This document shows, piece after piece, positions 1 to 43,217 of a DNA stretch of 43,217 bases (position 1 is its first letter; each line of letters begins with the position of its first letter). Both the position numbers and the translations under genes were made by a program. Under the pieces are notes generated by a model. It was given only the letters and a program-made list of their open reading frames with translations, was not told the origin of the DNA and did no database searches. This stretch comes from a virus, in IMG/VR virus record IMGVR_UViG_3300028030_000002, positions 1 to 43,217 of that record, one strand, 5' to 3'.

Positions 1-127
1 AGCTATCTATAAAGAGAGAGGATGCTCCAGATAATAAACCGCCAGTAAGAGGGATTGCGTAAAGCTCATCTTAACCCGACCGTGAAGACAGCTGAGGTAA
101 GGAGGTCCTGTATTAATTATTTTTTTT
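1..127. repeat. Terminal overlap, left copy
   Basis: Bases 1-127 are identical to bases 43091-43217; base 128 is the first past the shared part. Positions 2-34 are the last codons of the gene at 42627-43124 and the rest is the intergenic stretch after it. A perfect overlap of exactly 127 bases equals a common assembler k-mer length, so it most likely marks a circular assembly and not a biological terminal repeat. The real genome ends, if any, are not shown by this. Confidence 0.95.
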
Positions 128-170
128 GTACGAGAGCTATTAACTTGATAGCTCTTACCTAGGAGATAAA
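35..170 (+). other. Intergenic leader before the VRR-NUC gene
   Basis: This 136-base stretch has no gene. It is GC-richer at first (about 35-110), then has a run of eight T at 120-127, then a hairpin at 133-155 and the ribosome site AGGAG of the gene at 171. I found no clear hairpin directly before the T run, so I do not call a terminator there. A short helix is possible between CTTAACC (about 70-76) and GGTAAG (about 96-101), but this is weak. Its base composition differs from its surroundings, so it may be a structured leader RNA. Confidence 0.45.
133..155 (+). promoter_or_regulatory. Hairpin upstream of ribosome site
   Basis: AGAGCTAT (133-140) pairs perfectly with ATAGCTCT (148-155) around a 7-base loop. 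It ends about six bases before the AGGAG of the gene at 171 and is not followed by a T run, so it is more likely an RNA-processing or translation-control element than a terminator. Confidence 0.5.
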
Positions 171-449
171 ATGAAAGAGCAAGATTATCAAAACAAGATA
201 ATAAAAAGATTAGAAGCTAAAGGTGCATACGTAGTTAAAGTAGTCTCTGCATCTAAGAAAGGAGTACCTGATTTACTTATATGTTATAAAGGTAGATTTT
301 TAGCTGTAGAAGTTAAAACTCCTTTTACTAGACAAAATACATCAAAGTTACAAGAGTATAACTTAAACCTTGTAAAAAGGGCAGGTGGGTATTCTGTGAT
401 AGCTACAGAATTTGATGATTTAACGCAGATACTAGATAGGATAACATAA
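171..449 (+). CDS. VRR-NUC domain nuclease
   Basis: This 92-residue protein matches the VRR-NUC branch of the PD-(D/E)XK nucleases, a family with stand-alone phage members that act on branched DNA such as Holliday junctions. The core is visible: GVPD at residues 31-34 supplies the catalytic aspartate, followed by a beta strand and EVK at 47-49. The N-terminal part is a short amphipathic helix, as usual for the minimal version. An AGGAG lies before the ATG and the stop overlaps the next start (TAATG). In the circular genome it closes the replication gene run, so a role in resolving recombination or replication intermediates is likely. The exact substrate is inferred. Confidence 0.85.
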   Translation: MKEQDYQNKIIKRLEAKGAYVVKVVSASKKGVPDLLICYKGRFLAVEVKTPFTRQNTSKLQEYNLNLVKRAGGYSVIATEFDDLTQILDRIT

Positions 450-643
450 TGAAGAAAAGTAATAAATATCTGTATGGAGAAGCTACACCTATGCCAGTAA
501 ACCAGGAGGTTATTGATGATAGAGTAGCTAAACTACAGTACGAACTCACTCAAGAGTTAAACCGTAGCTATAAAGTGCGGGACTTTAGCAGAGTAAAAGA
601 TTTACAATCTGCTATTAATTTCTGGCTTAAGATTAACTCTTAA
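449..643 (+). CDS. Small hypothetical protein, last gene of the plus-strand run
   Basis: A 64-residue charged protein of unknown function, probably mostly helical in its second half. Its start overlaps the stop of the VRR-NUC gene (TAATG), so the two are probably translated together. Its 3' end overlaps the end of the oppositely oriented lipoprotein gene by 11 bases, and a perfect hairpin spans both stop codons. I recognise no family. Confidence 0.7.
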   Translation: MKKSNKYLYGEATPMPVNQEVIDDRVAKLQYELTQELNRSYKVRDFSRVKDLQSAINFWLKINS

Positions 644-645
644 GC
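625..645. terminator. Bidirectional hairpin at convergent gene ends
   Basis: GCTTAAGA (625-632) and TCTTAAGC (638-645) form a perfect 8-bp stem with a 5-base loop. The stem and loop contain the stop codons of both converging genes (plus-strand TAA at 641-643, minus-strand TAA at 635-633). The T run that follows is short, so it may halt polymerase only partly or protect the 3' ends of both transcripts. The same design occurs at 23409-23433. Confidence 0.6.
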
Positions 646-875
646 TCAGTAACTCTAAAAGTATTTTTACCATCCGCAGTTATAATTCCACCGTGGACTT
701 TTTGATATTCTTTAGCTTCTTGTAGACTCATTGTAACACCACCTAGTTTAGTTTTTCTTAATTTTTTACTATTTAAAGTACCATTATTTAAAATAAAGGT
801 ACACCCAGTTAAAACGATACCCGACATAGCCACAGCTACACTTGATAAAAGTACAGCTAATATAATATTTCTCAT
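633..875 (-). CDS. Small lipoprotein
   Basis: This 80-residue protein starts with a lipoprotein signal: charged MRN, a hydrophobic stretch to about residue 22, then the lipobox LTGC with cysteine near 25. It should be exported, lipid-modified and held on a membrane facing the periplasm. It is the last gene of the virion operon, with AAGGAG before its ATG overlapping the end of the upstream gene. Outer-membrane spanin or superinfection-exclusion lipoprotein are the two main options. The mature part (about 55 residues, basic then mixed) is compatible with either. No separate spanin pair is obvious in the lysis cassette. Confidence 0.7.
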   Translation of the reverse strand: MRNIILAVLLSSVAVAMSGIVLTGCTFILNNGTLNSKKLRKTKLGGVTMSLQEAKEYQKVHGGIITADGKNTFRVTELKS

Positions 876-4517: not shown

Positions 4518-6784
4518 TATAAACTCTCCAATATAGCTTGCTCCGCACTTTTCTCTTCATTTTGCGGTTTTACTTGTTCTCCATTAGATGGAGTAGTATG
4601 CTGAGTACGTGCATTAGCTATCTGCAATCTATCTTTAGCTGTTTTATACATTTTATTATCTTTAAGCCATCTAATGTCTTGTTGAAAATTTTTATCTATT
4701 TCAGATTGAAATGATTTCATAGTAGCTACACGTACACTTTCTTGGTCAGAAGCTAAACCAGTAACTTCCCTCATTTTATTATCGAACTCTTGGTCAGTAT
4801 ATTGTGAACCAGATAGAGCTTTGATATATGAAGACACTAACATAGATGTTCTAGCATCTAGCCCAGTTTGAGTAGCTATCTGCTTAGGCGTATATGTAGA
4901 TAATTCAGCTCCCGTTTTCTTAGACGCCCAGTTTACAAATTGGTCAATAGGACCTGACTTAAATGTGCCATTCTTAGCGGCGGCTAGAAAGTCTTGAGAT
5001 AACTCTTTTAATTGAGCTACAGTTTTAGCTGTATCTAAAGTAGCATCCACTCTAGCCTTAGAGTGGGAGTCATTCATAACTGTACTACGTGCCAGAGCTT
5101 CTTGTTTAGCTTCATAATCTGTAGTAGGTATACTAGGGTCAAATTTATACTCTTTAGGCGGTGTAGCTAAAGACTGTGCCATATCTCCTTGTTGGTCTTT
5201 ACGAGTGACATTCCCACCAGTAGATGTAACTTTAAGTAAAGTACGTTGAGCCATTTTAATTTTCTCAGGGTCGCCACTTTTCTTAGCTTCTTCTAAATCT
5301 TGTTGAGCTTGCCAAGTTTCAGCAGGTAAACCTTTAACTACTGAGTTTACAGCCATTCGAGAAGCTTCTGCATCTGTATATCTAGGAGAGCCGTCTGGTC
5401 TACGTTGCTGTAAAAAGAAGTTCTTTCTCTTTTGTAGTGTACTTTCTGAACCTGCCGTACCAGCTTTCCAATCCTCTCTTGCATCCTTTAGAGTACGTGA
5501 GCTATTAGCTGGGTCAGCTTTCCACTGAGTTAGAAAATCTTTCCAGTCAGATTTTTTAGGATTTTTAATTGCATCAATTCTAGCTTGAGCTAACTCTCTA
5601 TTAAGTTCTGCATTTTTAGAGAAGCTAGAAGTTTTACCGAGTAAATCATAAGCCATCTGAACTGAATTAGGTAAAGTATAACCGTGAGAAATTACATTAC
5701 CATCTGGCTGAACTGTTACAGAGCTACCATCTGAACTAATAGTAGTTAAATTGCCGTTAGCTTCTTTAATTACTCCAGTTCCATCTTTTTGTATAGTTGC
5801 CTTACTACCATTAGATAGCTTAATATCACTTTTACCGTTCTTATCCTCAGAAACTTTAGCATTTATCTTTGTTCCATCCTCAGTGGTAATCTCTGTACTA
5901 CCTACTTTAGTTCCATCTTCCTTAGTTTCAAGTTGAACAGGTTTAGTGGCAGGAGCTTGTGTAGTTCCATCTGTAGTAGCTTGTGTAGTTCCATCTGTAG
6001 GAGCTTGTGTAGTTCCATCTGTAGGAGCTTGTGTAGTTCCATCTGTAGGAGCTTGTGTAGTTCCATCTGTAGGAGCTTGTGTAGTTCCATCTGTAGGAGC
6101 TTGTGTAGTTCCATCCTCACCTTTAGCAAACTTAATAATAGCGTGCTTATTCTTTTCTATATCATCTATAATAGGAGTAGGCGCTGTTTTAGTTGTACCC
6201 ATAGCTTCACCAATAGAAAATAAATCTAAAGGTTTACTATTTTTATACATTACTGTCATTCCACTAGCCATACTTTTATCAGCTAGTTTATAAGCTGTAT
6301 CTGTGTCAATACCAGTACCTATATAAGATTTAGCTATTGTGTCTCTATCTAAATCAGGTACGGCTACTCTTAAATCGCCTTTATTTGCAGCTAAAGATTT
6401 TAAAGCTAATGGATTAGCCTCTATCTCTCTGATACTATCCTTTGTACTCTGTACATCTGGATTAGCTAAAGCATAGTTCACAGCTCTTTTAACTGTGTCA
6501 CCTGCCATTTGAGATTTTAGCTGGTGTAACTCTTGAGATTGCTGCTTTACTACATCTTGTAAATTGTTTTGACCTTGACTTTGTTCTATAGCTTGCTGTT
6601 TTTGTTGTTCAGCTAAAATAATATTTTGTTGTTTCTCTTTAAACTGAGCCTGTCTTTCAGCTCTGCTGTCTTGTCTAGTTTGTAGATAAATACCAGCAAA
6701 ATTACTAGCTCCTGCGCCAGCTCCCATTCCTGCATCGTAAGTCATAGGTGCTTGACCTATTAATTTTCTATGTAAATTAAACAT
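4517..6784 (-). CDS. Internal virion protein with 8-residue tandem repeats
   Basis: The open frame extends upstream to 6871, but I place the start at 6784. That ATG has GGAG six bases upstream and overlaps the portal stop, giving a protein of about 755 residues. The N-terminal third is glutamine-rich and helical. Then come seven copies of an octapeptide (DGTTQAPT), a block of short DG-containing repeats that looks like a beta-stranded rod, and a helical C-terminal half. Position between portal and the 1210-residue protein suggests an ejection or core protein. Function is inferred from position and composition only. The repeat region could change length by slippage. Confidence 0.65.
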   Translation of the reverse strand: MFNLHRKLIGQAPMTYDAGMGAGAGASNFAGIYLQTRQDSRAERQAQFKEKQQNIILAEQQKQQAIEQSQGQNNLQDVVKQQSQELHQLKSQMAGDTVKRAVNYALANPDVQSTKDSIREIEANPLALKSLAANKGDLRVAVPDLDRDTIAKSYIGTGIDTDTAYKLADKSMASGMTVMYKNSKPLDLFSIGEAMGTTKTAPTPIIDDIEKNKHAIIKFAKGEDGTTQAPTDGTTQAPTDGTTQAPTDGTTQAPTDGTTQAPTDGTTQATTDGTTQAPATKPVQLETKEDGTKVGSTEITTEDGTKINAKVSEDKNGKSDIKLSNGSKATIQKDGTGVIKEANGNLTTISSDGSSVTVQPDGNVISHGYTLPNSVQMAYDLLGKTSSFSKNAELNRELAQARIDAIKNPKKSDWKDFLTQWKADPANSSRTLKDAREDWKAGTAGSESTLQKRKNFFLQQRRPDGSPRYTDAEASRMAVNSVVKGLPAETWQAQQDLEEAKKSGDPEKIKMAQRTLLKVTSTGGNVTRKDQQGDMAQSLATPPKEYKFDPSIPTTDYEAKQEALARSTVMNDSHSKARVDATLDTAKTVAQLKELSQDFLAAAKNGTFKSGPIDQFVNWASKKTGAELSTYTPKQIATQTGLDARTSMLVSSYIKALSGSQYTDQEFDNKMREVTGLASDQESVRVATMKSFQSEIDKNFQQDIRWLKDNKMYKTAKDRLQIANARTQHTTPSNGEQVKPQNEEKSAEQAILESL
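5952..6115. repeat. 24-bp tandem repeat inside an ejection protein gene
   Basis: A 24-bp unit (plus-strand consensus begins GGAGCTTGTGTAGTTCC) is repeated six times with a seventh partial copy. It encodes an octapeptide on the minus strand. The copies are almost identical; the one at 5976 differs by a base (GTAGC for GGAGC), giving ATTD instead of APTD. A multiple of three keeps the frame open whatever the copy number. Confidence 0.95.
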
Positions 6785-8726
6785 TAGTTTCTCCATTATT
6801 AAATCTTGTAGGCACTTGAAGCTGTTGAGACTTTTTACCTTGTACAGCATTACTTCCGCCGTTGCTACCACCTAAAGCCGCACCCATAATAGCACTAGCG
6901 TCTCCGCCACTCATAGCTAAAGTAGGGTCTATTTGACCTTTAGATACCATAGCCGCTGTAGTGTTTAAAATCTTAGCTATAGCAGGAGAATTTTTAGTTC
7001 CACTTTCTTGTATCATCATAGCCGCTGTTTGCATATAACCTGCTGGGTTCATCTGTAACAGAGCTTGTCCAATAGGACCATTAACCACAGTCTCTAAAAG
7101 TAGCTGGTTTCTCTCTTCTGCGTTATTCGTATTAGTAGCTATAACTTTAAGTTGAACTTCTGCATACTTAACGTCTGTATCAGGGTCATTAAGAGGAGTT
7201 AAAATAATAGCTCCATCTTTATCTTTTAGATATTTTCCAGTTGCTGGGTCTTCTTCTGGCTCAAATATTGGAGTCATTTTAGGTTGTCCAGTTTTAGGGT
7301 CTATCTCTCCATTAGGCATAAGTAAAGGCTTATTAACCATTGCATATCTTAGCCCATTAACTGGGTCAGATACAGCAATTAGTCTCTCTGCTGTCCAATA
7401 CTGTTGAATGAGATTAACAATGTCCCATCCTACCATTTTATGTTGATATTTAACTCTATCAGTCAATACAGATAATTGACTAGCAGAGGATTGTTTCTGC
7501 ATTCCCACTTTACGTCCACTATCTGAAGCAAAAGCTTGACCTAAGAAGCTATCATTGATACCTAGAACAGATTTAATTCTTGTTAAAGCTTCATTTATAA
7601 TAGAGTATTGAGCAGCTATATCCTTGCTCATATCTTCAACTCTAATACCATCTAAATCAGTTACAGTAACTACTGCATTAACTGTATTAAACGTCTTTTT
7701 AAAGTCATCCAAGTTTTCTACAGCACTTTTTTCTACAAATGCTTTAGATGTATTAATTAACTGTTGTATTTGGATAATAGCTTGATTAATAGCTAACTGT
7801 GTTTCAGCTATTTCTCTAAATGCTCCATAGTACCCAGCTTTAACTGGCTCAAATAATTTAATAGGTCTATATGGAAAAGGTACTTTTTTGAAGCTAACTA
7901 CTTTCTTCTCTAATAATGTTTCACCTGACCATAGACATTCATATATCTTATTCTTGTATTTAACTACAGAATGTACAACTTGGTAGTTATTCCATTGTCT
8001 ATATTTACCTACTGCTTCTGAGCTATACTCTTCCCACCAGTCGGCTGTTGTATCTCCATCTAAAGCATTGTAATAAGCTGTTATCTCTTCTAGTTTAGCT
8101 TTACCCCATAGACGTATAACTTCTTCTTCTGGTAGCCATTTGTATCTATGTATGTATCTAGCATCCTCGTAATCATCACGTTTACTCATAGGGTCAATAC
8201 GAACTTGCCAGCTAGGTACTCTTTCAATAGAAATATCATATATAGGTCTTCCATAGTTGTCAGTTTTACCAGTATCTACAACTGTTTCATAAGTAACACA
8301 TAAACCAGTTAGTAAGCTATCTATCTGCAACTTTCTACGTAGTGTTTCGTAGTCATTAGTATCTTGGATATATTGTACCGCATCATTAACTATCATAGCT
8401 GACGTAGAAGAGTTCATATGTCTAGGCTCTATAGATATTTGATTAGCTACTGTATCAAAGTAACCTACCATAGCGTGAGTTAGCATTTTAACTACGTTAA
8501 ATGTTTCTGCTGGCTGACCTCTTGAAGTTAATACACGTAATTGGTTATTTGTCCATTGGTCATTATGGTAATAATCCAACATACATCTTCCCTCATTAAT
8601 AGAGTCTTCTAGTTCATTGTAAGAGATTTCGTATGTATCTTTACATAAATGCAGTAAAGTAGTATCTAGTTTACTCATATTTGTAATTTTCGTAGGGAGT
8701 TGTCCCGTAGCTGTTATTGTAGCCAT
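6777..8726 (-). CDS. Portal protein, P22 type
   Basis: A 649-residue portal, the dodecameric DNA gate at the capsid vertex. The order of elements is typical of the P22-like podovirus portals: an N-terminal helical region with a DYYHNDQW segment, a central wing, the long helix region with SVLGINDSFLG and a GRKVGMQKQSSASQLS segment, and a C-terminal alanine/glutamine/glycine-rich barrel. Length fits the family. The gene lies late in the virion operon, after the tail genes and between internal proteins, and far from the terminase, which is on the other strand. That order is unusual. The alternative of a different minor head protein is unlikely. Confidence 0.88.
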   Translation of the reverse strand: MATITATGQLPTKITNMSKLDTTLLHLCKDTYEISYNELEDSINEGRCMLDYYHNDQWTNNQLRVLTSRGQPAETFNVVKMLTHAMVGYFDTVANQISIEPRHMNSSTSAMIVNDAVQYIQDTNDYETLRRKLQIDSLLTGLCVTYETVVDTGKTDNYGRPIYDISIERVPSWQVRIDPMSKRDDYEDARYIHRYKWLPEEEVIRLWGKAKLEEITAYYNALDGDTTADWWEEYSSEAVGKYRQWNNYQVVHSVVKYKNKIYECLWSGETLLEKKVVSFKKVPFPYRPIKLFEPVKAGYYGAFREIAETQLAINQAIIQIQQLINTSKAFVEKSAVENLDDFKKTFNTVNAVVTVTDLDGIRVEDMSKDIAAQYSIINEALTRIKSVLGINDSFLGQAFASDSGRKVGMQKQSSASQLSVLTDRVKYQHKMVGWDIVNLIQQYWTAERLIAVSDPVNGLRYAMVNKPLLMPNGEIDPKTGQPKMTPIFEPEEDPATGKYLKDKDGAIILTPLNDPDTDVKYAEVQLKVIATNTNNAEERNQLLLETVVNGPIGQALLQMNPAGYMQTAAMMIQESGTKNSPAIAKILNTTAAMVSKGQIDPTLAMSGGDASAIMGAALGGSNGGSNAVQGKKSQQLQVPTRFNNGETNV

Positions 8727-25064: not shown

Positions 25065-25109
25065 GTCCTTCCATACGCATACTAGGTATCTGAAAAGCTA
25101 CCCTTGACC

Positions 25110-25157: not shown

Positions 25158-25270
25158 CTATAACCAATGCCGCCACTATTCAACATCAGCTAACTATAAT
25201 CAACGCCTAGCAGCTACATTGGCAGCCGTCTTGTTAGCTAATCCATTCAGCTACGAAGCTACATATTAAC

Positions 25271-25440: not shown

Positions 25441-25513
25441 TAGATAAAACTTGCCTCTCTAGCATAAAATTTGTTCTTTGTCAATGTTTCAAAAAGTAAC
25501 ATTTTGCTTATAT

Positions 25514-25567
25514 GGCACGAACGGCACGTGGTCAATAGTAAGGGTAGCCTAGACTACTAAAACGCCT
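25514..25567 (+). promoter_or_regulatory. GGCACGAACGGCAC leader element, copy 1
   Basis: GGCACGAACGGCAC (25514-25527) recurs exactly at 30463-30476. Both copies continue with TC-ATAGTAA at the same distance and end with ACGCCT 48 and 47 bases from the start. The element lies upstream of the promoter of the gene at 25690 on the same strand. GCCT(25564-)…AGGC hairpins are possible here. Whether it acts as DNA or RNA is not known. Confidence 0.6.
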
Positions 25568-25632
25568 CAGAGGCTATTTAAACTGTGTTTTACAGCGGTA
25601 TTACTGATTTTGTACTTTTAGCTACCTAATAC

Positions 25633-25661
25633 TTGACTTGTAGAGCTAGATAAGCTATACT
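25633..25661 (+). promoter_or_regulatory. Sigma70-type early promoter
   Basis: TTGACT (25633-25638), 17 bases, TATACT (25656-25661), then AAGGAGCTATAAAATG at the gene at 25690. Start of transcription near 25668. This is the first promoter of the rightward early region. Confidence 0.85.
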
Positions 25662-25689
25662 TACACCATCAAAATTAAGGAGCTATAAA

Positions 25690-25926
25690 ATGCTATACAT
25701 ATTAGAGACGAAAGACAACCACACAATTAACGACTGCGAAAAGGTAGCTATGCAAGAGCTTGATAACTTGGATGAGCCGTTTATTTTTTATGCGGTGCAA
25801 GTTGAAAGTGAAGTAATAGATAAACTTGTCAGTTATAAAGATGAAATAGAGCAGTTAAACAACTCAATAGCTTATCCATATCCAAAGGTAGTGATTGAAG
25901 CGTGTAAGCTACGACTAAAACGCTAA
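25690..25926 (+). CDS. First early protein, unknown
   Basis: A 78-residue acidic protein with AAGGAG before the ATG and a near-ideal promoter 29 bases upstream, so it should be made at once after infection. Helices with charged heptad-like spacing (IDKLVSYKDEIEQL) are visible. It is the only gene in the 2-kb repeat and RNA region. Early small proteins of phages often target host factors; nothing in the sequence shows which. Confidence 0.75.
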   Translation: MLYILETKDNHTINDCEKVAMQELDNLDEPFIFYAVQVESEVIDKLVSYKDEIEQLNNSIAYPYPKVVIEACKLRLKR

Positions 25927-25994
25927 ATTTGGAGTATAATAGCCTAATTAACAACTGCAAAGCTCAATCCCTAGCGACTAAATAGAAAGGACGT

Positions 25995-26059
25995 GAGGGC
26001 AATAAAATCTTCAGTGACATATTTTATCACGTGACAAATAAAAATGTCTTCTTGCCCTC
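25995..26059 (+). ncRNA. Stem-loop I
   Basis: GAGGGCAA (25995-26002) pairs with TTGCCCTC (26052-26059). Inside, TGACAT and ATGTC can extend the structure and the palindrome TCACGTGA lies near the tip. No ORF crosses it. Confidence 0.6.
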
Positions 26060-26196
26060 TCAAAAGCTTAAATTTCGATATACTAGAAGCTAAAATTATT
26101 TGCCTCGTAATATCGGTCATTTTGAAGATTTAATCTGCTTAAGCTACAGCTAAGATTTAGTGACAAAATTGTAGTATTTACAATCCAGCAGTTTCC

Positions 26197-26330
26197 GCCG
26201 ACATTTTTAGGGGGTCGCCCTAGAATTTAAAACAACTAGCTAAATTGACTTACAGCTACCTAGTCTAGGCTACCTAGAGCTAAATTTCTGAGTTGTTTTA
26301 AATTCCAGAAGAAACTTCAAAAAAGTCGGC
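26197..26330 (+). ncRNA. Nested long inverted repeat (stem-loop II)
   Basis: Outer stem GCCGAC (26197-26202) with GTCGGC (26325-26330), followed by TTTTT/AAAAA pairing. Inner stem is a perfect 15-bp match: GAATTTAAAACAACT (26223-26237) with AGTTGTTTTAAATTC (26291-26305). A mini-hairpin AGGG/CCCT at 26209-26221 sits on the left side, and CCTAG/CTAGG near the tip. Such length and nesting are far beyond chance. Confidence 0.75.
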
Positions 26331-26512
26331 AGCCATCCAATATTGTAAAAACAGCATATTTTTAACGTAGTTTAGGGCTAAAAGTGACATCAATCTAGGT
26401 AAAAAGTTGGCAGGCAATATGCACGATTGTGCTTTTCGCTCCAGCTAGAATATAAGTTGGAAATAGCTCCTCAAATTTTCGCCAGTTTTTCCACAATCTA
26501 GCATTAAAATAT

Positions 26513-26553
26513 TACAATTCAGCACTGCGAAAAAGTTGCTGTGCTGAATTGTA
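26513..26553 (+). ncRNA. Stem-loop III, 13-bp perfect stem
   Basis: TACAATTCAGCAC (26513-26525) pairs with GTGCTGAATTGTA (26541-26553) around a 15-base loop. It is separated by a single base from the next hairpin. Confidence 0.75.
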
Positions 26554-26554
26554 T

Positions 26555-26602
26555 AAAAGTTGGTCAAAATAAAATTCACAGAAATAAATCTGACCAACTT
26601 TT
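26555..26602 (+). terminator. Terminator-like stem-loop IV
   Basis: AAAAGTTGGTCA (26555-26566) pairs with TGACCAACTTTT (26591-26602), then T. The right arm ends in a short T run, so it may end the leftward part of the early transcript, in either direction. The loop is 24 bases. The first TTAAGCGGTA promoter follows 80 bases on. Confidence 0.6.
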
Positions 26603-26683
26603 TATCAATCTAGTGAATAAGTTAGCCACCTAAAACTTTAAGAAAATCAAAAGCAGAACCAAAGCAGTAGTTAAGATTAGATT

Positions 26684-26703
26684 AAGCGGTACTACGTTAT
26701 ACT
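26684..26703 (+). promoter_or_regulatory. Phage-type promoter, AAGCGGTA box, copy 1
   Basis: AAGCGGTA (26684-26691), six bases, TATACT (26698-26703); preceded by TT. The same box with the same six-base spacing recurs at 27138 and 34521. The usual -35 is lacking. The gene at 26732 starts 28 bases on. Confidence 0.7.
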
Positions 26704-26731
26704 ACCTCTATCAAAACAAAGGAGACACACA

Positions 26732-27185: not shown

Positions 27186-27398
27186 ATGAAAGATGAAGCA
27201 ACTGAAATTATGGAAGACATAGCTGATACATTTTATGCTGGTCAGGCTACAGCAGGAGTGCAAAAGCTTAAATTAGCTGGACTAAATGCAAGCGACTTCT
27301 TAGCTTACATAGAAGATTTAGAAGCAGAGACAAATACAGAAAACACGGTTTTTAATCGTAGATTTTTTATTAGATTAGCTGGAGATATGAGGAGCTAA
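27186..27398 (+). CDS. Small early protein, paralogue 1
   Basis: A 70-residue acidic protein, with most of its sequence matching the next gene: MEDIADTFYAGQ, AGVQKLKLAGL, DFLAYIEDLEAETNTEN and NRRFFIRLA. AAGGAG upstream. Helical; no known family. Confidence 0.78.
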   Translation: MKDEATEIMEDIADTFYAGQATAGVQKLKLAGLNASDFLAYIEDLEAETNTENTVFNRRFFIRLAGDMRS

Positions 27399-27446
27399 GT
27401 AATGGAAGTAGCAATACCTATACAAAACAACAAACAAGGAGAAGTA

Positions 27447-27647
27447 ATGAATGAAATTATGGAAGACATAGCTGATACATTTTATAATGGTCAGTTTACA
27501 GCGGGAGTGCAAGAGCTGAAATTAGCTGGACTAGGTGCAAGAGACTTCTTAAGTTACATAGAAGATTTAGAAGTAGAGACAAACACAGAAAACACGTTTT
27601 TCAATCGAAGATTTTTTATTGAGTTAGCTGAAGATATGAGGAGCTAA
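27447..27647 (+). CDS. Small early protein, paralogue 2
   Basis: The open frame runs upstream to 27402, but the start MNEIMEDIADTFYNG at 27447 has AAGGAG before it and matches the copied leader of paralogue 1, so I choose it (66 residues). It matches paralogue 1 closely over almost its whole length. Two copies kept under constant reading frame suggests a useful dose or separate roles. Confidence 0.78.
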   Translation: MNEIMEDIADTFYNGQFTAGVQELKLAGLGARDFLSYIEDLEVETNTENTFFNRRFFIELAEDMRS

Positions 27648-27650
27648 GTA

Positions 27651-27896
27651 ATGGAAGTTGTAATACTTATACTATTAATGATAATAACATTTGCGGTGCT
27701 GGGTTCAGCTAACATATTTAGGATTGTAGCTTTTCTATTGAAAACAACAGTCAAGCTTAGTATCTTAGCTGTAGTTGTAGTAGGAGTATATTTAATTCAT
27801 ACAACTCATCCAGATGCAGATGTAGCAATTATTGGAGTTGCATTTATTTTATTCTTTGTTTATATGTTAGACAAAGATACAGAGCAAGTTAAGTAA
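27651..27896 (+). CDS. Small membrane protein
   Basis: An 81-residue very hydrophobic protein with three likely membrane helices (about 3-22, 30-50, 57-73) and a charged C-terminus. It is in the early region, away from the lysis cassette, so host envelope modification or superinfection exclusion is more likely than lysis. RBS GGAG before the ATG. Confidence 0.7.
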   Translation: MEVVILILLMIITFAVLGSANIFRIVAFLLKTTVKLSILAVVVVGVYLIHTTHPDADVAIIGVAFILFFVYMLDKDTEQVK

Positions 27897-28980: not shown

Positions 28981-29164
28981 TGACAGAGACTTATATAAGT
29001 ATATGAAGTCATTAGGCTTTGTATGCAATGGGACGACAAAACATTGTCTTATTTTTTCTAATGGCACACATAGAGTTAGAACAAGTAAGACCACGAGTGA
29101 TAGGAGACGTAGATTAAAAAACTTAAAAAGTGAACTAAAAAGGATCGGATATGGCAGTATATGA
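28970..29164 (+). CDS. Small basic protein, HicA-like in outline
   Basis: A 64-residue basic protein. TTG start at 28970 with AAGGAG eight bases upstream. The core LGFVCNGTTKHCLIFSNGTHRV resembles the small dsRNA-binding-like fold of HicA (G near the start of strand, then a histidine before the next strand), but the partner HicB is lacking and the basic C-terminal helix SDRRRRLKNLKSEL is not typical. An RNA-binding role is a guess. Confidence 0.55.
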   Translation: MKIDDRDLYKYMKSLGFVCNGTTKHCLIFSNGTHRVRTSKTTSDRRRRLKNLKSELKRIGYGSI

Positions 29165-29327
29165 AGTAAATGTTAATTACGAAGAGACGGCAGTGGTAGT
29201 TGTAGAGGCTAAATCAGCTCAAGAAGCTGAAGAGATGGTACAAGCTATGATAAACAATAATAACTTAGACGACTTCCCAGACAGAGAAACGACAAACAGA
29301 GAATGGCAGGTGTACGCAGATGTATGA
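29151..29327 (+). CDS. Small protein, DpnD/PcfM-like in outline
   Basis: A 58-residue frame read directly: it begins MAVYEVNVNYEETAVVVVEA and continues with KSAQEAEEMVQAMI. The beta hairpin followed by a helix with A-E-E spacing resembles the small DpnD/PcfM-like family of phages and plasmids. AGGA before the ATG; overlaps both neighbours. It is tentative by length. Confidence 0.6.
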   Translation: MAVYEVNVNYEETAVVVVEAKSAQEAEEMVQAMINNNNLDDFPDRETTNREWQVYADV

Positions 29328-29499
29328 TTTTGATGCTACAATAGAGGCGGCGGTGAAAGAAGCACTGGTTCTGAACTACGGTTATAGCTTCAAGCAAGCC
29401 TTATATTTCTGGAACAAGAACGGTGAGCAGATACTCAAAGAAGTTACTATTAAAACAAGTAGCATATTAGAGAGGTACATAAGCAATGAAGTACGATAG
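29320..29499 (+). CDS. Small early protein, unknown
   Basis: A 59-residue frame (MYDFDATIEAAVKEAL at the start), overlapping the gene before it by 8 bases and the next by 14. Helical, aromatic patch YSFKQALYFWNKNG. The ribosome site is weak (CAGG), so coupling to the gene before is likely. No family. Confidence 0.55.
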   Translation: MYDFDATIEAAVKEALVLNYGYSFKQALYFWNKNGEQILKEVTIKTSSILERYISNEVR

Positions 29500-29563
29500 C
29501 TTTGAATACTATCTACTTAGCATAGCTGTGTTAGCTATACTATATGTACTAATTTTTAGATAA
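29486..29563 (+). CDS. Very small single-span membrane protein
   Basis: A 25-residue frame, MKYDSFEYYLLSIAVLAILY followed by VLIFR, with one membrane helix. GAGAGG is upstream and the stop is used in the next ribosome site (TAAGGAG). Its tight fit in the gene chain supports it. Confidence 0.5.
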   Translation: MKYDSFEYYLLSIAVLAILYVLIFR

Positions 29564-29574
29564 GGAGATACACA

Positions 29575-29775
29575 ATGGCAAGAATAGTTAAAGTGACAGT
29601 AGGTTTGACAGAGAGTGTTAATACAGCACCCTATACATATGTTAAACCAGAGATTAGCTTAACGGCTGAAGTGGGAGCGAAAGAGAGCTACGATGAGGTT
29701 TTCAAGGCTCTTAATGAGGAGCTAAAAGAACGAATGCATAAGATGATAGCTCAGATAGAAGCGGATAATGTATAA
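29575..29775 (+). CDS. Small early protein, unknown
   Basis: A 66-residue protein: beta N-terminus (RIVKVTVGLTESV) with a C-terminal helix (EVFKALNEELKERMHKMI). AAGGAG overlaps the preceding stop. No known family. Confidence 0.7.
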   Translation: MARIVKVTVGLTESVNTAPYTYVKPEISLTAEVGAKESYDEVFKALNEELKERMHKMIAQIEADNV

Positions 29776-30462: not shown

Positions 30463-30515
30463 GGCACGAACGGCACCTACTCCATAGTAATGTGTGTCTA
30501 AGAGAGTTTACGCCT
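30463..30515 (+). promoter_or_regulatory. GGCACGAACGGCAC leader element, copy 2
   Basis: GGCACGAACGGCAC (30463-30476), ATAGTAA and ACGCCT match copy 1 at 25514. Here it is embedded in a clear structure: ACAAGGC (30459-30465) with GCCTTGT (30512-30518), and TCTCTC (30453-30458) with GAGAGA (30550-30555). It precedes the promoter for the PrimPol gene group. Confidence 0.6.
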
Positions 30516-30624: not shown

Positions 30625-30843
30625 ATGCCACTAACAGAATTAAACAATATTTTTACAGAAGAACATAATGCTACCTATTATGATGATTTGCTAGCTAACC
30701 ATAAGCTAATTATCAGAACAGTTCGCAACACTAACCAAAAGACAGTAGCTAAAGCTATAAATATGAGCGAACCTAAATTCTCAGCTATTTATAAGTTACT
30801 TTTAGCTTATGCAGATAAAGAGGTGGCTAAAGATGACAATTAG
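30625..30843 (+). CDS. Small HTH DNA-binding protein
   Basis: The frame is open further upstream but ATG 30625, with AAAAGGA before it, is the good start (72 residues). The segment TNQKTVAKAINMSEPKFSA has a helix-turn-helix look, similar to CII-like phage regulators. It is upstream of and overlaps the PrimPol gene. It may regulate replication genes or help load the primase at the origin. Confidence 0.65.
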   Translation: MPLTELNNIFTEEHNATYYDDLLANHKLIIRTVRNTNQKTVAKAINMSEPKFSAIYKLLLAYADKEVAKDDN

Positions 30844-33220
30844 CGAGGGATATGAAAGTAAAGGGATAAAACTATCACCTGCTGGAATTTGGGAAAGAGA
30901 CGCTGAAACTGGTAAAAAGCATCCAATAGTAGCTTATAGAAAAGATGGACTAGAATTTGCTAATTATCCAAAGGACAACATAGCTAAATGTAGAATAGAA
31001 GATATAATAGCTCCTGAGGGTTACAGAGTTATTGTTATAGATGCAGACAGCCAAGAGGGTAAAGAAAAGGTACTTAAGCTATTTCCACAAGCTGTAGATA
31101 CATTTAGTACACGTACAAGTAGCGATGCTAAACGACACTTTTTCTTCTATGTTCCTAAAGATAAGTTTGATGAACTGAGAGCTATTGGTATTTTTGTAGA
31201 GGTAGATTTATTATCTTATGGGATATTATTTGAGGCTCACTTCTTTAGAGAAGACGACTATGAAATGCCAGACTTTTCAAAAGACATACTTACACTAGAT
31301 GAAGCAGGACAAGAGCTATTATTAGAAAGCCTAGACACAAAGTCAGTTAGCTTCAAAAGTAATGGCGAACACACTAGCTTTGTTAATAAAGAAATGGCTT
31401 TTTTAGTTGAGAATTATGTAGCTGGTGAACTAGATATTATGAGCGACGACCCAGTAGCTAGATTAAACAGAAACAAGCTATTTAAACAATTAACTCCTAA
31501 ATCTCAAAAGAAGAAAGGACAGAGAAAGTTTGAAGCTCCTAAACTTAGCCACGACAGTTTAAACACAATGGCTTTACTTGTAGCTAAGAACTCTAAGATA
31601 CCTAATGAGGTAGCTATACAGTTTATAGAAAAGCTTTTAGTAGAATTATATGGAGTAGATTTAAACTCTAAGGAAACACATAACCATTGGTATAATAGTA
31701 TCTTACCTACGTTACCATTCTTTGAGCGTATTTTTAATTCTTTAGAAGATTTTAGAGAGTTCGATGAGGTATTAGAGCAAAACACTACAGATAACACGAA
31801 AGACGCTAACTTTAAATGGGCTCTGTTTACGACAGCTAAAAATGGAACGACTAAGTATTTTCAAATTAACAAGTTTACATATAGGTTACGTAGTATAAAC
31901 GGCTCTGTGTTCTTTGACGAGTCTTACATACGTAAACTATATCCTAACTTAACTAAAGATGACTTAGAAGACATACCTCATCTAGCTCTAATGACAGACC
32001 CATACAAAGAAGTAGTAGAATTTGATGAAGATAACGATATATATCTGTTAAATACAATGCACCCCAGTAGGTATAAAGCTAATGCTATAGCTAGAAAAGA
32101 TAAGCCAGATAATGTACTAACTAAAATGATTAATAAGTTCTTTGATAATCAACTACACGAAGAATTTTATTACCATTGGTTAGCTCATCTAGTTTATGGT
32201 GACAAGCCAGTTAATGTAGTAGTTTGGTTTTGTAGTGATGCTAATGCTAAAGCTGGAACTGGTAAGACCTTACTGTCCGCGGCTTTGCCTGCTCAATTAA
32301 TGGGAGATGAACAAGCTACTACAGTTGATAGCTCTGTAGCTGATGCAGGATGGGGTCAGATGTATGATACAAGATTACTTAGCTACAATGACCTTAACAA
32401 AATGAAAGATAGCGAATGGGCTAGAATGTACGCTAAGATTAAAGATGAAGCTAGTAACTCTACATCTAAGATTAGAAATAATAAAGGTGGAGACGTAGTT
32501 AAATCTAGTGTTGGTATCTGCCAGAGTGGTAGTTCTAACTTTATTCCGAGTGTGGATGCTTCTGACAGACGTTTCTTTATTGTTAGCCCTAAGCTACAGC
32601 TAGACGAAAACGGTGCAGATGAACTACATAGAATATTTGAGGCTGAACGTAATAAAGAACACGAAGAAGTGCAAGAAATAGCTGATTATCTAGCTTACTT
32701 ATATAAAAATGAAGCAGATACGTATAAAGAAGAGCTATTTACAAGAGCTATAAAAACAGAAGAGAAAATCTCAGCTACTCAGATGGGAGCGTACACACAT
32801 ACTATTATTAGTAGAATTAGTTACGCACCTAAAGAGTTATTTGACATATTTAAAGAGCCAACAAGCTACTCTGACACGTGGCAAGACTGGCAAATTATTG
32901 AGTTTATTAAAGTACAGTCTATTAATGGTAAAGTTTATTTACCTATTAAGTTTTTAAATATGCTTATTAATCGTGTAAAAGGTATAGATGAAGAAAGAAG
33001 TCCAGCATCTATTATGAGCATACTGGAAATGAAGAAAACTAGAATACGAGAAGATAATGCTAGATTTTTACAGCCACATAAACTTAAAAACTTCCCTAGT
33101 GAAGTAGCTACCTATAAATTATATGGTGTAGAAACAGACATTAATGAGGAAGCTTACAAGAATTTTATGCCTGAGAAGCTCTCACCTGAGGGAATACATA
33201 GATTAGTAGGAGGATTATAA
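30833..33220 (+). CDS. PrimPol-SF3 helicase fusion
   Basis: Start at ATG 30833, overlapping the HTH gene and with GAGGTGG upstream (795 residues). N-terminal archaeo-eukaryotic primase-polymerase: IDAD with D70 and D72, the S/RH motif at SDAKRHFFFY (H102), and third acid D125 in FVEVDLLSYG. C-terminal D5/SF3-type helicase: Walker A AKAGTGKTLL (K478), then the segment RLLSYNDLNKM with the Walker B equivalent, and the ending SNFIPSVDASDRRFFIVSP typical of this class (arginine finger region). It should prime and unwind DNA at replication forks. Confidence 0.9.
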   Translation: MTISEGYESKGIKLSPAGIWERDAETGKKHPIVAYRKDGLEFANYPKDNIAKCRIEDIIAPEGYRVIVIDADSQEGKEKVLKLFPQAVDTFSTRTSSDAKRHFFFYVPKDKFDELRAIGIFVEVDLLSYGILFEAHFFREDDYEMPDFSKDILTLDEAGQELLLESLDTKSVSFKSNGEHTSFVNKEMAFLVENYVAGELDIMSDDPVARLNRNKLFKQLTPKSQKKKGQRKFEAPKLSHDSLNTMALLVAKNSKIPNEVAIQFIEKLLVELYGVDLNSKETHNHWYNSILPTLPFFERIFNSLEDFREFDEVLEQNTTDNTKDANFKWALFTTAKNGTTKYFQINKFTYRLRSINGSVFFDESYIRKLYPNLTKDDLEDIPHLALMTDPYKEVVEFDEDNDIYLLNTMHPSRYKANAIARKDKPDNVLTKMINKFFDNQLHEEFYYHWLAHLVYGDKPVNVVVWFCSDANAKAGTGKTLLSAALPAQLMGDEQATTVDSSVADAGWGQMYDTRLLSYNDLNKMKDSEWARMYAKIKDEASNSTSKIRNNKGGDVVKSSVGICQSGSSNFIPSVDASDRRFFIVSPKLQLDENGADELHRIFEAERNKEHEEVQEIADYLAYLYKNEADTYKEELFTRAIKTEEKISATQMGAYTHTIISRISYAPKELFDIFKEPTSYSDTWQDWQIIEFIKVQSINGKVYLPIKFLNMLINRVKGIDEERSPASIMSILEMKKTRIREDNARFLQPHKLKNFPSEVATYKLYGVETDINEEAYKNFMPEKLSPEGIHRLVGGL

Positions 33221-34506
33221 TGAATGAAGTATGCAAAGCTTACGAGCAGAACATAAAATTTACAGTAGGTAGAGCAGGAACGGGTAAGAGTACAGAGCTA
33301 GTTAAGATAGCTAAATCTAATGCTCTAGTTCTTACACCTACTCATAAAGCTAAAGAAATACTAATTAGAAAAGGTGTAGAACACGCTCAGACTATACACT
33401 CTGTATTAAGTCTTGTACCTACGATTGACCAAAACGTTAGGCGAGGTAGAAAGATACGTAAGCTAAGAAAGGTAGCTAATGTAAATTTAGATGAGATAGA
33501 CATAGTAATTATAGATGAGTTTTCTATGATAAACACAAAAATAGCTGATTTATTACTTAGTTTATTACCTGAACATTGTACAGTACACTTTTTCGGAGAT
33601 GCTTATCAGCTACCACCTATAGATGGCGACCCTATATTTCCTTTAGATTACACAGACGAGGAGAATATTACTGTACTAACTAAACAGTATAGAGCAGATA
33701 ATATAGATATAGTAAATAGCTTTGAAAGATTTGCTAGATGGATAGAAGATGGTAGCTGCAAAGATTTAACACTAGATAATTTACCAAGAATAACTGAAAA
33801 GGAGCTAGCTAAACGATTTAATCCACAAACAGATAGAATACTAGCTTATACGAATGCTAGGGTAATAGAGCTAAATTCTTTAATTAAAACTCCCAGTTTA
33901 GCTAAGGATGATGACATTCTTATTAATGGAATAGAAGCTAAAGTATTTGAAATAGGTAATGATAGCGGATTACCTACGATTTTTCCTAAGATAATTAGCA
34001 AAGGAAGACTTAACTTAGATAAAATAAATGAAGTAAATGATGAGCTAACTAAATATAATGGCTGGGAGCTATTAAAAAATGAAGACGAATTAATAGTTAC
34101 CATAGACGGTAACTATTTTAATATATTCTATGACTTAGAACATTACTATAATAGTAAAACATTGGAGAAAGAAGTTATAGATGCACAAGAGCTAGTGATT
34201 AGAGAAAATAACCTAGACGAGAAAGAAAACTTAGCTAAATGGTGTAGGATTAATCAAAATGGCATGGGCGTAAAACGTAGAGCCAGAGCTTGGAGAGAGT
34301 ATTTAAGCCATAATAACTATGTTTTTGATTTACGTTACCCTTATGCTACAACAGTTCACAAAGCACAAGGCTCAGAGTTTGATACGGTTTACATAGACCA
34401 AGTAAATATGAAACTGGCTGTACGTAATGGTTATATAGAGCAGTATGCAAGATTAATGTATGTAGCTCTATCACGAGCAATAAAAAATATATTTATTATC
34501 GAATAA
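33220..34506 (+). CDS. SF1 helicase, RecD/Dda-like
   Basis: A 428-residue DNA helicase. Walker A GRAGTGKS (residues 17-24), motif Ia LTPTHKAKE, Walker B VIIDEFSM, motif III GDAYQLPP, then AYTNAR and the SF1B signatures TTVHKAQGSEFDTVYID and LMYVALSRA. The size matches T4 Dda-type enzymes. It is coupled to PrimPol by overlap. Likely role: origin melting or recombination-dependent replication with 5'-3' movement; direction is from the family. Confidence 0.9.
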   Translation: MNEVCKAYEQNIKFTVGRAGTGKSTELVKIAKSNALVLTPTHKAKEILIRKGVEHAQTIHSVLSLVPTIDQNVRRGRKIRKLRKVANVNLDEIDIVIIDEFSMINTKIADLLLSLLPEHCTVHFFGDAYQLPPIDGDPIFPLDYTDEENITVLTKQYRADNIDIVNSFERFARWIEDGSCKDLTLDNLPRITEKELAKRFNPQTDRILAYTNARVIELNSLIKTPSLAKDDDILINGIEAKVFEIGNDSGLPTIFPKIISKGRLNLDKINEVNDELTKYNGWELLKNEDELIVTIDGNYFNIFYDLEHYYNSKTLEKEVIDAQELVIRENNLDEKENLAKWCRINQNGMGVKRRARAWREYLSHNNYVFDLRYPYATTVHKAQGSEFDTVYIDQVNMKLAVRNGYIEQYARLMYVALSRAIKNIFIIE

Positions 34507-35332: not shown

Positions 35333-35545
35333 ATGGAAAAGACAAACAAAATTATAGCTAAAGTAGAAGGAGACCAGTTTACGTGGGATTGTAATGCTCC
35401 TGCTCCTCTTGTTTTGGTTATAGTAGTTAAGACAATTCAGTCAGCAGTTAAAGTATTTAAAGACATAGACGACAAAACTTTTTCCAATATATTGTTACAG
35501 ACATTGTCAGATACAGTTAAAAATGAGATAGGAGAAATTAAGTAA
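35333..35545 (+). CDS. Small protein before the polymerase
   Basis: The frame opens at 35279, but ATG 35333 has AAAGGA before it, so I use it (70 residues). It is coupled to the polymerase (1-base overlap). It has a strand segment KIIAKVEGDQFTWDC and a hydrophobic helix VLVIVVKTIQSAVKV. No family; a polymerase accessory role is possible from position. Confidence 0.65.
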   Translation: MEKTNKIIAKVEGDQFTWDCNAPAPLVLVIVVKTIQSAVKVFKDIDDKTFSNILLQTLSDTVKNEIGEIK

Positions 35546-37215
35546 TGCGTATATTTGAGGTAGTGCCTTTAGCTTACGCACTACGACAAATTGACCCTAC
35601 TAAACCTATCTTTGCAGATACAGAGACAATGGGTTTATATGGTAAGCTAAAGTTGTTACAAGTTATGCAAGATGGATGGGAGCAAGCCTTATTAATAGAA
35701 GACCCAGACTATAAAACCGTGCAGGAACTTGTCACTAATAGTCATACAGTATGGCATAACGCTAGCTATGATTTATCTGTACTAGATGTTATACCTAATA
35801 AGTTTGATGACACTTTTATAGCTTCTAAACTTGAGTATTTTAAAGAGGATAAATTAGACTTAGCTTCTGTTTATTCTTATGCTCTAGGCTATGACCCCTA
35901 TAAAGAGAGTGGAATAGATAAAAAGGTGATGCAAAAAACTAACTGGGGTGGACAACTTACAGATGCTCATTACTTATATGCATCTATAGATGTTTACTAT
36001 ATGCCTGAGTTATGGGCTAAACTAAAGCATTTAACAGAAGACCCTAATTACAAACTAGACATTATAACGATTAAACATTGTCAAGTGTTAGGTAAAAGAG
36101 GTTTACCTTTAAAATCTTTAGTGCCAGTTTTAAAAGAAACTACTGAAAAGCTGGAAGAGCTAGAAGCTATGTTACCAGTTAATCCTCGTAGCTCTCAACA
36201 AGTTGCGGTGTATTTAGATATGCAAGATGGAACTGGAGCTGATAAGTTAGCTAAGTTGGTAAGTGAGGGAGGAGAAAGAGGAGTAAAAGCTCAAAGAGTT
36301 AGAACTGCCAGAGAGTTAAGTAAGTTTAAATCTACTTATCTGTCTAAAATGGTAGGGCATTCAAAATGGTTTGGTCATTTTTCACCTAAGACAAAGTCAG
36401 GGAGACTAGCTTCAAGTGATAATAACTTGCAGAACTTACCTAGACAGATGAAGAAGTTTATAGGTTATGAAGCTATAAATGGAAGAGTTTTAGTTTCGGT
36501 GGATTATGCTCAACTAGAGCTTAGAACCATTGCGGCTATTACTGGTGATACACTAATGGTTAAGCTATTTAGAGATAACGTGGATGTTCACGGGTATGTA
36601 GCTTCTATTTTATTTGGTAAAGATTATACAAAAGATCAGAGGCAAATAGCTAAAACTTGTAACTTTGCGTTGTTGTATGGTGCAGGTGCGGCTAAGTTCG
36701 CTATGATACTTCTTAAAAATACTGGTATAGCGATAACAGAAAATGAAGCTCTTAAGCTTAAGAAACAGTGGCTAAGTATCTTTAAAGGTATTGCAGAATG
36801 GCAACAGACAGCTATTAAATCTTGGAGAGCAGGTAATTATTGGTTTACTCCAATGGGTAGAAAGTATAAAGCTAAGATGATGAATGACTTTATGAACATT
36901 CGTAATCAAGGTGCAGGTGGTGAGGTAGCTAAATTAGGTTTTCATTATATAATGCAAGAATTTGATTTTGAAGACAGTTATATGATTAACTTTGTACACG
37001 ATAGCTTTATAGCTGACTGTCCAAATGACCCAGCTATCTATACGAAAGTAGCTGAACTATTTGCAGATAGCTTACAAGAAAGCTGGAAACAATATAGTAA
37101 TGTGGTAGATTTAAGAGGTATTCCTATGCCAGTTTCAGTAGGTGTTGCACTTGATTGGGCTGAGGCAGATGGAATGACAGATAAGTGTCTATATAAAATA
37201 GAGAGAGTAGCTTAA
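35545..37215 (+). CDS. Family A DNA polymerase with 3'-5' exonuclease
   Basis: A 556-residue replicative polymerase. Exonuclease: ADTETMG with D25 and E27, HNASYDLSVL (about 71-80), and YASIDVYYMPELW (about 145-157). Polymerase motif A VSVDYAQLELR with D320, motif B RQIAKTCNFALLYG with R366, K370 and F374 (where E. coli Pol I has F762), and motif C NFVHDSFIA with D486. In motif B an alanine replaces the common glycine after the phenylalanine. No 5'-nuclease domain. It lies between the possible ssDNA-binding protein and the nuclease gene. Confidence 0.95.
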   Translation: MRIFEVVPLAYALRQIDPTKPIFADTETMGLYGKLKLLQVMQDGWEQALLIEDPDYKTVQELVTNSHTVWHNASYDLSVLDVIPNKFDDTFIASKLEYFKEDKLDLASVYSYALGYDPYKESGIDKKVMQKTNWGGQLTDAHYLYASIDVYYMPELWAKLKHLTEDPNYKLDIITIKHCQVLGKRGLPLKSLVPVLKETTEKLEELEAMLPVNPRSSQQVAVYLDMQDGTGADKLAKLVSEGGERGVKAQRVRTARELSKFKSTYLSKMVGHSKWFGHFSPKTKSGRLASSDNNLQNLPRQMKKFIGYEAINGRVLVSVDYAQLELRTIAAITGDTLMVKLFRDNVDVHGYVASILFGKDYTKDQRQIAKTCNFALLYGAGAAKFAMILLKNTGIAITENEALKLKKQWLSIFKGIAEWQQTAIKSWRAGNYWFTPMGRKYKAKMMNDFMNIRNQGAGGEVAKLGFHYIMQEFDFEDSYMINFVHDSFIADCPNDPAIYTKVAELFADSLQESWKQYSNVVDLRGIPMPVSVGVALDWAEADGMTDKCLYKIERVA

Positions 37216-38870: not shown

Positions 38871-38871
38871 G

Positions 38872-41835: not shown

Positions 41836-42176
41836 TTGATGTAGCTATGATACTATTTACTATTATTAATATAGGTCTAGTATCATTATTTATCTACAAT
41901 AAACGTGATGAAGAAGACTACATTAGTGAAGCTAATCCACTTAGAGAGTACGATAAAATTAAAGAAGCTGTAGAGTATAAAATTCAAGAAACTGTAGAGG
42001 ATAAAATAGCTTCTTTACAGAGCCAATATAATATAAAAGCTACAGTTATTTTACTTGACACAGCCAGCTGGAAAATTGTTGTGGAAAATTCAAAAGATGA
42101 CAATTATTTAACTTCTTGGTTAGGATGCGTGTTAGCTTTAGTTGCTACAGATGAGATTTTTATAGAGGTAGCGTAA
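41832..42176 (+). CDS. Membrane-anchored protein, unknown A
   Basis: A 114-residue protein with one N-terminal membrane helix (MIDVAMILFTIINIGLVSLF) and a charged cytoplasmic or periplasmic part. It forms a pair with the next gene, which has a similar plan and a similar C-terminal part. Confidence 0.7.
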   Translation: MIDVAMILFTIINIGLVSLFIYNKRDEEDYISEANPLREYDKIKEAVEYKIQETVEDKIASLQSQYNIKATVILLDTASWKIVVENSKDDNYLTSWLGCVLALVATDEIFIEVA

Positions 42177-42508
42177 TGGGCTTCTCTATATTTATCTTTT
42201 TAGGTGGTGTAGCAGTCGGTTTACTTATAGTAGTTATTTTTTATGAAATGGCTAGACTTATAGATTTAGTGGGGTATAATACGGAAGATGAAATAAAAAC
42301 ACTTGAGGATGTTATAGAGTATGTAAGATACGAGCAGGACAGACTTAAAAACACATTTGGAAAAGGAGCTGAGTGGTTAATTATGGATAATAATAGCTTC
42401 TTTAAGATTTTATCTGCTACCCATACAGATAAAAATGGCACACTTACTTGTCTAGGCTTAAAGGTAGCCTTAGTAGGAAGTAAACAACAAATTATAGAGG
42501 TATTATAA
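42176..42508 (+). CDS. Membrane-anchored protein, unknown B
   Basis: A 110-residue protein with one strong N-terminal membrane helix (IFIFLGGVAVGLLIVVIFYE). Its last 50 residues match the preceding protein loosely: a strand with ATHTDKNGTL, then a closing LGLKVALVGSKQQIIEVL beside LGCVLALVATDEIFIEVA. The two probably arose by duplication. Confidence 0.7.
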   Translation: MGFSIFIFLGGVAVGLLIVVIFYEMARLIDLVGYNTEDEIKTLEDVIEYVRYEQDRLKNTFGKGAEWLIMDNNSFFKILSATHTDKNGTLTCLGLKVALVGSKQQIIEVL

Positions 42509-42627
42509 TGATAGAAAAATTTAGTAAATGGTTTGTGGCTACTCCTTTGCGTAGGGAGCTATTTGGTCTTATTGTTTCTTTAATAGCGATTACAGTTATT
42601 ATACTTTCAACTGAGGGACTACAATAA
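42508..42627 (+). CDS. Small single-span membrane protein
   Basis: A 39-residue frame read directly (MIEKFSKWFVATPLRRELFG then a membrane helix). TAATG overlap at both ends fits the gene chain. Confidence 0.65.
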   Translation: MIEKFSKWFVATPLRRELFGLIVSLIAITVIILSTEGLQ

Positions 42628-43124
42628 TGATTGATATTAACTCATTTTGCGATATTTATGAAGTTTCACATAATCTAGTTTATGTAACTAAGGGACAGAA
42701 ACCTAGCATAGCTAAATTTTTTCATAAAGTCAGCGAAAGAGAGATGTACATAGATGATAAAGCTATAGCTAGACGTAAAAATTTTGGGTTAAAAGTGATA
42801 AATATTTCACGTGATAACTACTATAAGCTAACTGAAGAACATACAGATACGCAAATAGCTAAAATTCTATCTCATTATTCTGGCAGTAGTGTAGCTAGCT
42901 GGAGAATGTTTTTGCGAATTGCCCTATTTAGTTTTAGCTACCAAGAACACTCTGTTTTACAGTATGAAATAACAGATAAAATGTGGCAATTTTTTAGGTA
43001 CTCTACGTTTTTAATTAGAGGGTTAGAGAGACAGCAAGCTCACAAAGAAAGAAGACTTAAATATCTGCATCCTAATAGAGATAACTATGAAGCTATCTAT
43101 AAAGAGAGAGGATGCTCCAGATAA
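42627..43124 (+). CDS. Early-region protein with possible HTH, unknown
   Basis: A 165-residue basic protein. Residues about 90-115 (HTDTQIAKILSHYSGSSVAS) look like a helix-turn-helix, suggesting DNA binding. It is the last complete plus-strand gene before the join; its final codons are repeated at 2-34. Confidence 0.6.
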   Translation: MIDINSFCDIYEVSHNLVYVTKGQKPSIAKFFHKVSEREMYIDDKAIARRKNFGLKVINISRDNYYKLTEEHTDTQIAKILSHYSGSSVASWRMFLRIALFSFSYQEHSVLQYEITDKMWQFFRYSTFLIRGLERQQAHKERRLKYLHPNRDNYEAIYKERGCSR

Positions 43125-43217
43125 TAAACCGCCAGTAAGAGGGATTGCGTAAAGCTCATCTTAACCCGACCGTGAAGACAGCTGAGGTAAGGAGGTCCTG
43201 TATTAATTATTTTTTTT
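43091..43217. repeat. Terminal overlap, right copy
   Basis: Identical to bases 1-127. In the circular map 43091 is base 1. Confidence 0.95.

Follow-up and report, generated by a model that had tools for sequence, protein, structure and literature searches.

The DNA analyzed here, a phage record of 43,217 bases that we call the window (that is, the whole stretch), raises the question of why a viral genome should carry one palindromic tetramer, AGCT, at about every 63 bases. A sequence-only reading had drawn attention to this excess and had offered both a host-based and a function-based account of it. We counted AGCT against several expectations, compared the window with its relatives, unrelated viruses, and hosts, and weighed the possible origins of the bias.

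The phage record and its relatives

The window, whose GC content is 35.4%, is a complete-looking phage record with a direct terminal repeat of 127 bp (1–127 = 43091–43217). Its minus strand encodes the portal protein (6777–8726; phrog_156, E = 4.7e-68) and the major capsid protein (19004–20161; phrog_334, E = 1.3e-49), and its plus strand encodes the terminase large subunit (21637–23424; phrog_2, E = 1.8e-22), a probable primase-helicase of 803 amino acids (30809–33220), an SF1 helicase (33220–34506; PF13245, PF13604, and PF13538), and a phage-encoded family A DNA polymerase (35545–37215; PF00476, E = 5e-41). The 803-residue protein matches Prim-Pol weakly, at a level below the Pfam cut-off (PF09250, E = 0.003). 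ARAGORN found no tRNA genes in the window, and a DNA comparison of its first 25 kb with named phages gave no near match.

Homologues of the capsid, portal, terminase, and DNA polymerase are present in Edwardsiella phage KF-1, Pseudoalteromonas PH1, Vibrio VPMS1, and Dickeya Amaethon, as well as in two Manatee Spring podoviruses. With 32–50% identity over 81–97% of the query in the 12 records listed, these four proteins place the window among the KF-1/PH1-like podoviruses (Kafunavirus group). The terminase and the portal protein are 44–50% and 38–42% identical, respectively, to those of KF-1/PH1-type phages, and the polymerase is 32–39% identical to those of the siblings. The major capsid protein served as the query for relatives and as the basis of the tree, in which the window's clade is monophyletic (support 100/98), with the warning that long branches meet at this clade.

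Several repeats were observed along the genome. About seven near-identical 24-base units lie within a 784-residue ORF (5951–6115), and a small gene is tandemly duplicated at 27203–27672 (249 bases). The stretch 24719–26731 contains no ORF of at least 80 residues, and one shorter ORF was spotted by eye near 25691–25926. This 2-kb stretch, which separates the lysis genes from the rightward gene block, harbors 69-base repeats (24848–25060) and is, at that place, possibly control or origin DNA. The 14-mer GGCACGAACGGCAC occurs in exact copies at 25514–25527 and 30463–30476, a pair of matches seen in none of 100 shuffles; genes are sparse around both copies, which may have a regulatory role. In another contig, L013 (9288–11701), the DNA polymerase gene is interrupted, past the codon that corresponds to residue 376 in the window, by some 750 bases with an HNH-like frame. 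The interruption, for which Rfam gave no match, resembles an intron that carries a homing endonuclease.

AGCT excess in the window

AGCT occurs 686 times in the entire record (1–43217, no strand assigned), compared with 141 expected from base composition (4.86-fold) and 354 expected from dinucleotides (1.94-fold); 100 dinucleotide shuffles of the window gave a mean of 353 and a maximum of 402. It ranks first among the 256 tetramers by observed count over composition, and its density is even along the window, at 8 to 22 sites per full kb. The local counts made by the sequence-only reading were accurate, namely 12 in 1–660, 19 in 24721–25690, and exactly 11, where about 11 had been given, in 29161–29760, compared with 2.01, 3.00, and 1.87 expected from local composition, respectively. 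The genome-wide excess that it had claimed for both coding and non-coding DNA was confirmed, being 4.98-fold in coding DNA and 5.28-fold outside ORFs, where, owing to the cut-off of 80 residues, some short genes (probably most of 29161–29760) are counted among the 6,293 "non-coding" bases. The cleaner stretch 24719–26731 contains 33 AGCT, compared with 18.1 ± 3.3 in dinucleotide shuffles.

Two simpler accounts, which had been named beforehand as capable of undoing the claim, both failed. Trinucleotide content predicts 576 sites and leaves a 1.19-fold excess (z = 10.5); this test is partly circular and understates the excess, because AGCT itself supplies most of the AGC and GCT in the window. 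T follows AGC in 686 of 1,036 cases (66%), versus 41% after TGC, 49% after GGC, and 32% after CGC. Nor is the value equally high in all phages of the same composition, since the 83 unrelated viral contigs listed with 30–45% GC have a median of only 0.92-fold.

Codon use, longer motifs, and spacing

The view that codon use alone does not explain the excess was upheld. AGCT exceeded the synonymous codon shuffles in each of the three phases (ratios of 2.58, 2.28, and 1.62; z = 12.0, 8.2, and 14.7, respectively), and this result, together with the excess outside ORFs, refutes codon use as the only cause. Among control palindromes in the same shuffle, TGCA and GTAC stayed at about 1, AATT fell below 1 in all phases, and ACGT was raised in two of the three phases.

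A search for a longer motif around AGCT found none: enrichment extends to all flanks, without any 5- to 10-mer as a clear driver. The spacing of the sites peaks at 9, 12, 21, 24, and 33 bases, which, judging from helix geometry, fits alanines in amphipathic helices and no DNA period. Adjacent AGCT pairs exactly 57 bases apart were observed 23 times, scattered over the genome.

AGCT across relatives and unrelated viruses

In all nine members of the window's clade (the window and eight close contigs), AGCT reaches 4.08–5.65 times the composition and 1.94–2.46 times the dinucleotide expectation; the eight contigs come from four metagenomes and some are maybe pieces of one genome, so that the counts exceed the number of independent cases. 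The 83 more distant relatives have medians of 2.3-fold over composition (1.33–3.89) and 1.27-fold over dinucleotides (0.90–1.59), the list of relatives being the best 80 of 140 and containing near-duplicates. One distant contig (L101), related by its terminase only and with a 1.87-fold value, was placed in neither group. Among the matches listed, the 105 unrelated IMG/VR contigs (of 120, those shorter than 4 kb having been dropped, and with a bias from the 14-base probe) show a median of 0.89-fold, a 95th percentile of 1.81, and a maximum of 3.14.

The ranks follow the same pattern. AGCT is the first of the 256 tetramers in 50 and among the top five in 67 of 80 listed relatives, versus a median rank of 149 and a top-five place in 5 of the 105 unrelated contigs among the matches listed. 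The window, with AGCT at rank 1, thus shares a lineage-wide signature. Across 86 relatives, the excess is uncorrelated with GC content (rho = 0.12, P = 0.25). The relatives also have AG and TA values of 1.19 and 1.03, compared with 1.00 and 0.81 in the unrelated contigs, and further tetramers stand out in them (TAGC/GCTA, AGTA/TACT, and more); since these features are common to the relatives, AGCT marks the top of a wider signature. Dinucleotide content accounts for almost the whole excess in KF-1, VPMS1, and Amaethon (o/e1, 1.13–1.26), whereas the window's clade adds 1.9–2.5-fold on top of it.

Comparison with hosts

Members of the family were compared with unrelated phages of the same host genus, one control phage for each genus. 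The AGCT value is 2.47 in KF-1 (whose host is taken from its name) versus 0.66 in MSW-3 for Edwardsiella, 2.58 in VPMS1 versus 1.11 in VP93 for Vibrio, and 2.07 in Amaethon versus 1.29 in BF25/12 for Dickeya. The contrast is weak for Pseudoalteromonas, with 2.74 in PH1 versus 2.08 in H105/1, where AGCT ranks sixth; given this small gap, the host signature may be a contributor in the case of PH1. A 50-kb segment of E. coli K-12 gave 0.80. With the family member clearly above the unrelated phage in three of the four genera, the AGCT excess is not simply host-derived. A search of 84,980 genomes for capsid relatives returned only four distant contigs (47–49% capsid identity) in unrelated MAGs, which did not name a host, and the clade's extra factor of two could include a host part. 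The proposal that the host lacks an enzyme cutting AGCT is compatible with these data but accounts only for the absence of avoidance and not for the enrichment.

Turnover of AGCT sites

Fourfold-degenerate third bases are 52% identical between clade members and near saturation. In 183 aligned pairs of a fourfold codon followed by an alanine codon, taken between the window and the clade contigs, A|GCT was kept in 54 of 83 cases (0.65), compared with a stationary value of 0.63. As retention equals the frequency in relatives, sites are remade wherever codons allow, and their positions are not conserved beyond equilibrium, which is not the behavior of a functional site with conserved positions. 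The suggested role of AGCT as a methylation or protein-binding site accordingly found no support in its positions, and no methyltransferase was recognized among the matches of the 42 ORFs, many of which match nothing.

In pairs with at least 90% identity, AGCT retention was 0.905, compared with a median of 0.886 for tetramers of two G/C and two A/T bases (rank 8 of 52). This near-average retention indicates that the excess comes mainly from gains, which seem weightier than protection of existing sites. Within the clade, at about 20% divergence, retention was 0.63 versus 0.48 for comparable tetramers (rank 3 of 51); such a higher value is also what selection would give, and the bias may stem from mutation or from weak selection. 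Taken together, the AGCT bias acts on DNA as such, and neither on codons nor on fixed sites.

Avoided palindromes

Other palindromes had been described as avoided, and six are indeed nearly missing from the window: GATC (5 copies), CATG (9), GGCC (0), GCGC (5), CCGG (3), and CGCG (4), at 0.00–0.12 of the composition and 0.00–0.27 of the dinucleotide expectation. This depletion beyond dinucleotides fits that of a restriction-avoiding phage. In the eight other clade contigs, GATC is absent, but four of them retain CATG (L005, 0.43; L007, 0.56; L008, 0.74; and L096, 0.69). We also observed strong depletion of five of the six palindromes in an H. cinaedi prophage, with CGCG less affected (0.32). 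The depletion of the six palindromes is an effect separate from that of AGCT and is most simply explained by restriction avoidance.

Origin of the bias

On balance, and with modest confidence, we regard the AGCT excess as a lineage-intrinsic, DNA-level signature of the KF-1/PH1-like podovirus family, with a gain pressure that would arise from phage replication or repair. The family overall favors AG/CT and GC steps, leaves TA unsuppressed, and has AGCT as its commonest tetramer relative to composition, and the bias appears to have climbed sharply on one long branch, that of the window's clade. The putative cause is a context-dependent gain pressure in the phage's own replication or repair. This origin is the most likely one because the signature tracks the phage family and because a polymerase, helicases, a ligase, and nucleases are all phage-encoded in the window as well as in its siblings. 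Candidate sources of the bias are the family A DNA polymerase and the 803-residue probable primase-helicase, and a contribution from the window's host is possible. The 803-residue ORF occupies the same place as the sibling primases (DUF5906/P4-type), before the SF1 helicase, and was unalignable with them using shallow two- and four-row profiles. It has no PHROG match, and it carries what we take to be DxD, sxH-like, and GTGKT motifs. Its predicted structure has a mean pLDDT of 32.8, and a search against solved structures gave chance-level matches only.

Other origins were weighed against this one. That alanine GCT codons following A-ending codons produce the excess is barely credible: xxA|GCT accounts for 441 of the 581 coding AGCT, but the excess over synonymous shuffles appears in all phases and is bigger in the other two, and it is equal outside ORFs. 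It is highly improbable that AGCT is a by-product of palindrome avoidance, or of methylation with repair of the very-short-patch type. The six nearly missing palindromes would suit such an account, but their simulated removal lifts AGCT by only 4–9% (145 to 158, or 358 to 371), AGCT and avoidance are uncorrelated in 86 relatives (rho = −0.08, P = 0.45), and AGTT and AACT are enriched where T-to-C repair at AGCT would need them depleted; a methyltransferase was likewise not recognized in the 42 ORFs. Amelioration of the phage to an AGCT-rich host genome is unlikely, although phage tetranucleotide usage usually tracks the host (PMC1360066) and the clade's own set of avoided palindromes suggests a host group of its own. 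The trait spans a family whose named hosts belong to four genera. Moreover, when 150 Pseudomonadota genomes were surveyed for a 10-mer that contains AGCT, 20 stretches came out, of which 19 were long enough and none AGCT-rich, the segments from these 19 genomes, picked for richness in the 10-mer, reaching only 0.74–1.77-fold. Campylobacterota, a host group guessed from the avoided palindromes of the H. cinaedi prophage, were rejected as well, since six sequences (phages, prophage, and plasmids) had no comparable AGCT (1.00–2.24-fold).

Selection for AGCT as a ubiquitous short DNA element, such as a priming site for primase or a protection against host nucleases, is improbable. The sites are spaced slightly more evenly in the window than in third-order Markov simulations (P = 0.013–0.047, 150 simulations), Prim-Pol type primases read template motifs of 3–4 bases (GTG and GTGA; PMC8718748), and a palindrome is usable on both strands. 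However, the evenness is weak or absent in the three other clade contigs tested, the window's probable primase is unalignable with those of its siblings and yet all are AGCT-rich, and AGCT loss in close pairs is near average. A more specific version, in which AGCT would be a genome-wide working element preferred by the replication machinery (e.g., the primase) on either strand and the extreme clade would have changed both its primase and its AGCT density, is quite doubtful.

Comparison with known systems

In the open-licence literature, as represented by titles and abstract openings, AGCT enrichment in these phages was not found reported, and the word AGCT is absent from the available text of PMC6286503, PMC4841201, and PMC1360066. 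As in the restriction-site avoidance of phages (PMC6286503), the window has GATC, CATG, GGCC, and others nearly absent; that phenomenon is one of depletion, whereas AGCT in the window is the opposite. The tetranucleotide usage of phages studied by Pride et al. 2006 (PMC1360066) is also a genome-wide tetramer signature with phylogenetic signal, but it is tied mainly to the host, whereas the signature found here tracks the phage family.

The nearest precedent that we found is that of the subcluster B3 mycobacteriophages, in which GATC and GGATCC are over-represented (Siranosian et al. 2015, PMC4841201). As in the window, a restriction-type palindromic tetramer is present at about 4 times its expectation, genome-wide, in one lineage, and with an unexplained cause. 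The B3 tetramer is GATC, its phages belong to a single host group, and a 6-mer stands behind it; here, the tetramer is AGCT, the hosts belong to several genera, and no longer core was found. The family of the window has a broader phylogenetic reach than B3. Within that family, KF-1 (Kafunavirus), PH1, VPMS1, and Amaethon resemble the window in their homologous proteins and in the rank of AGCT (first of 256 in three and fourth in Amaethon), but their excess is milder (2.1–2.7-fold) and mostly due to dinucleotides, and they avoid none to two of the palindromes. A family with the same top tetramer across hosts would mislead the guessing of phage hosts by tetramer signature, which assumes likeness to the host, and the isolates KF-1, VPMS1, PH1, and Amaethon provide a system for measuring directly what causes a phage-intrinsic signature.
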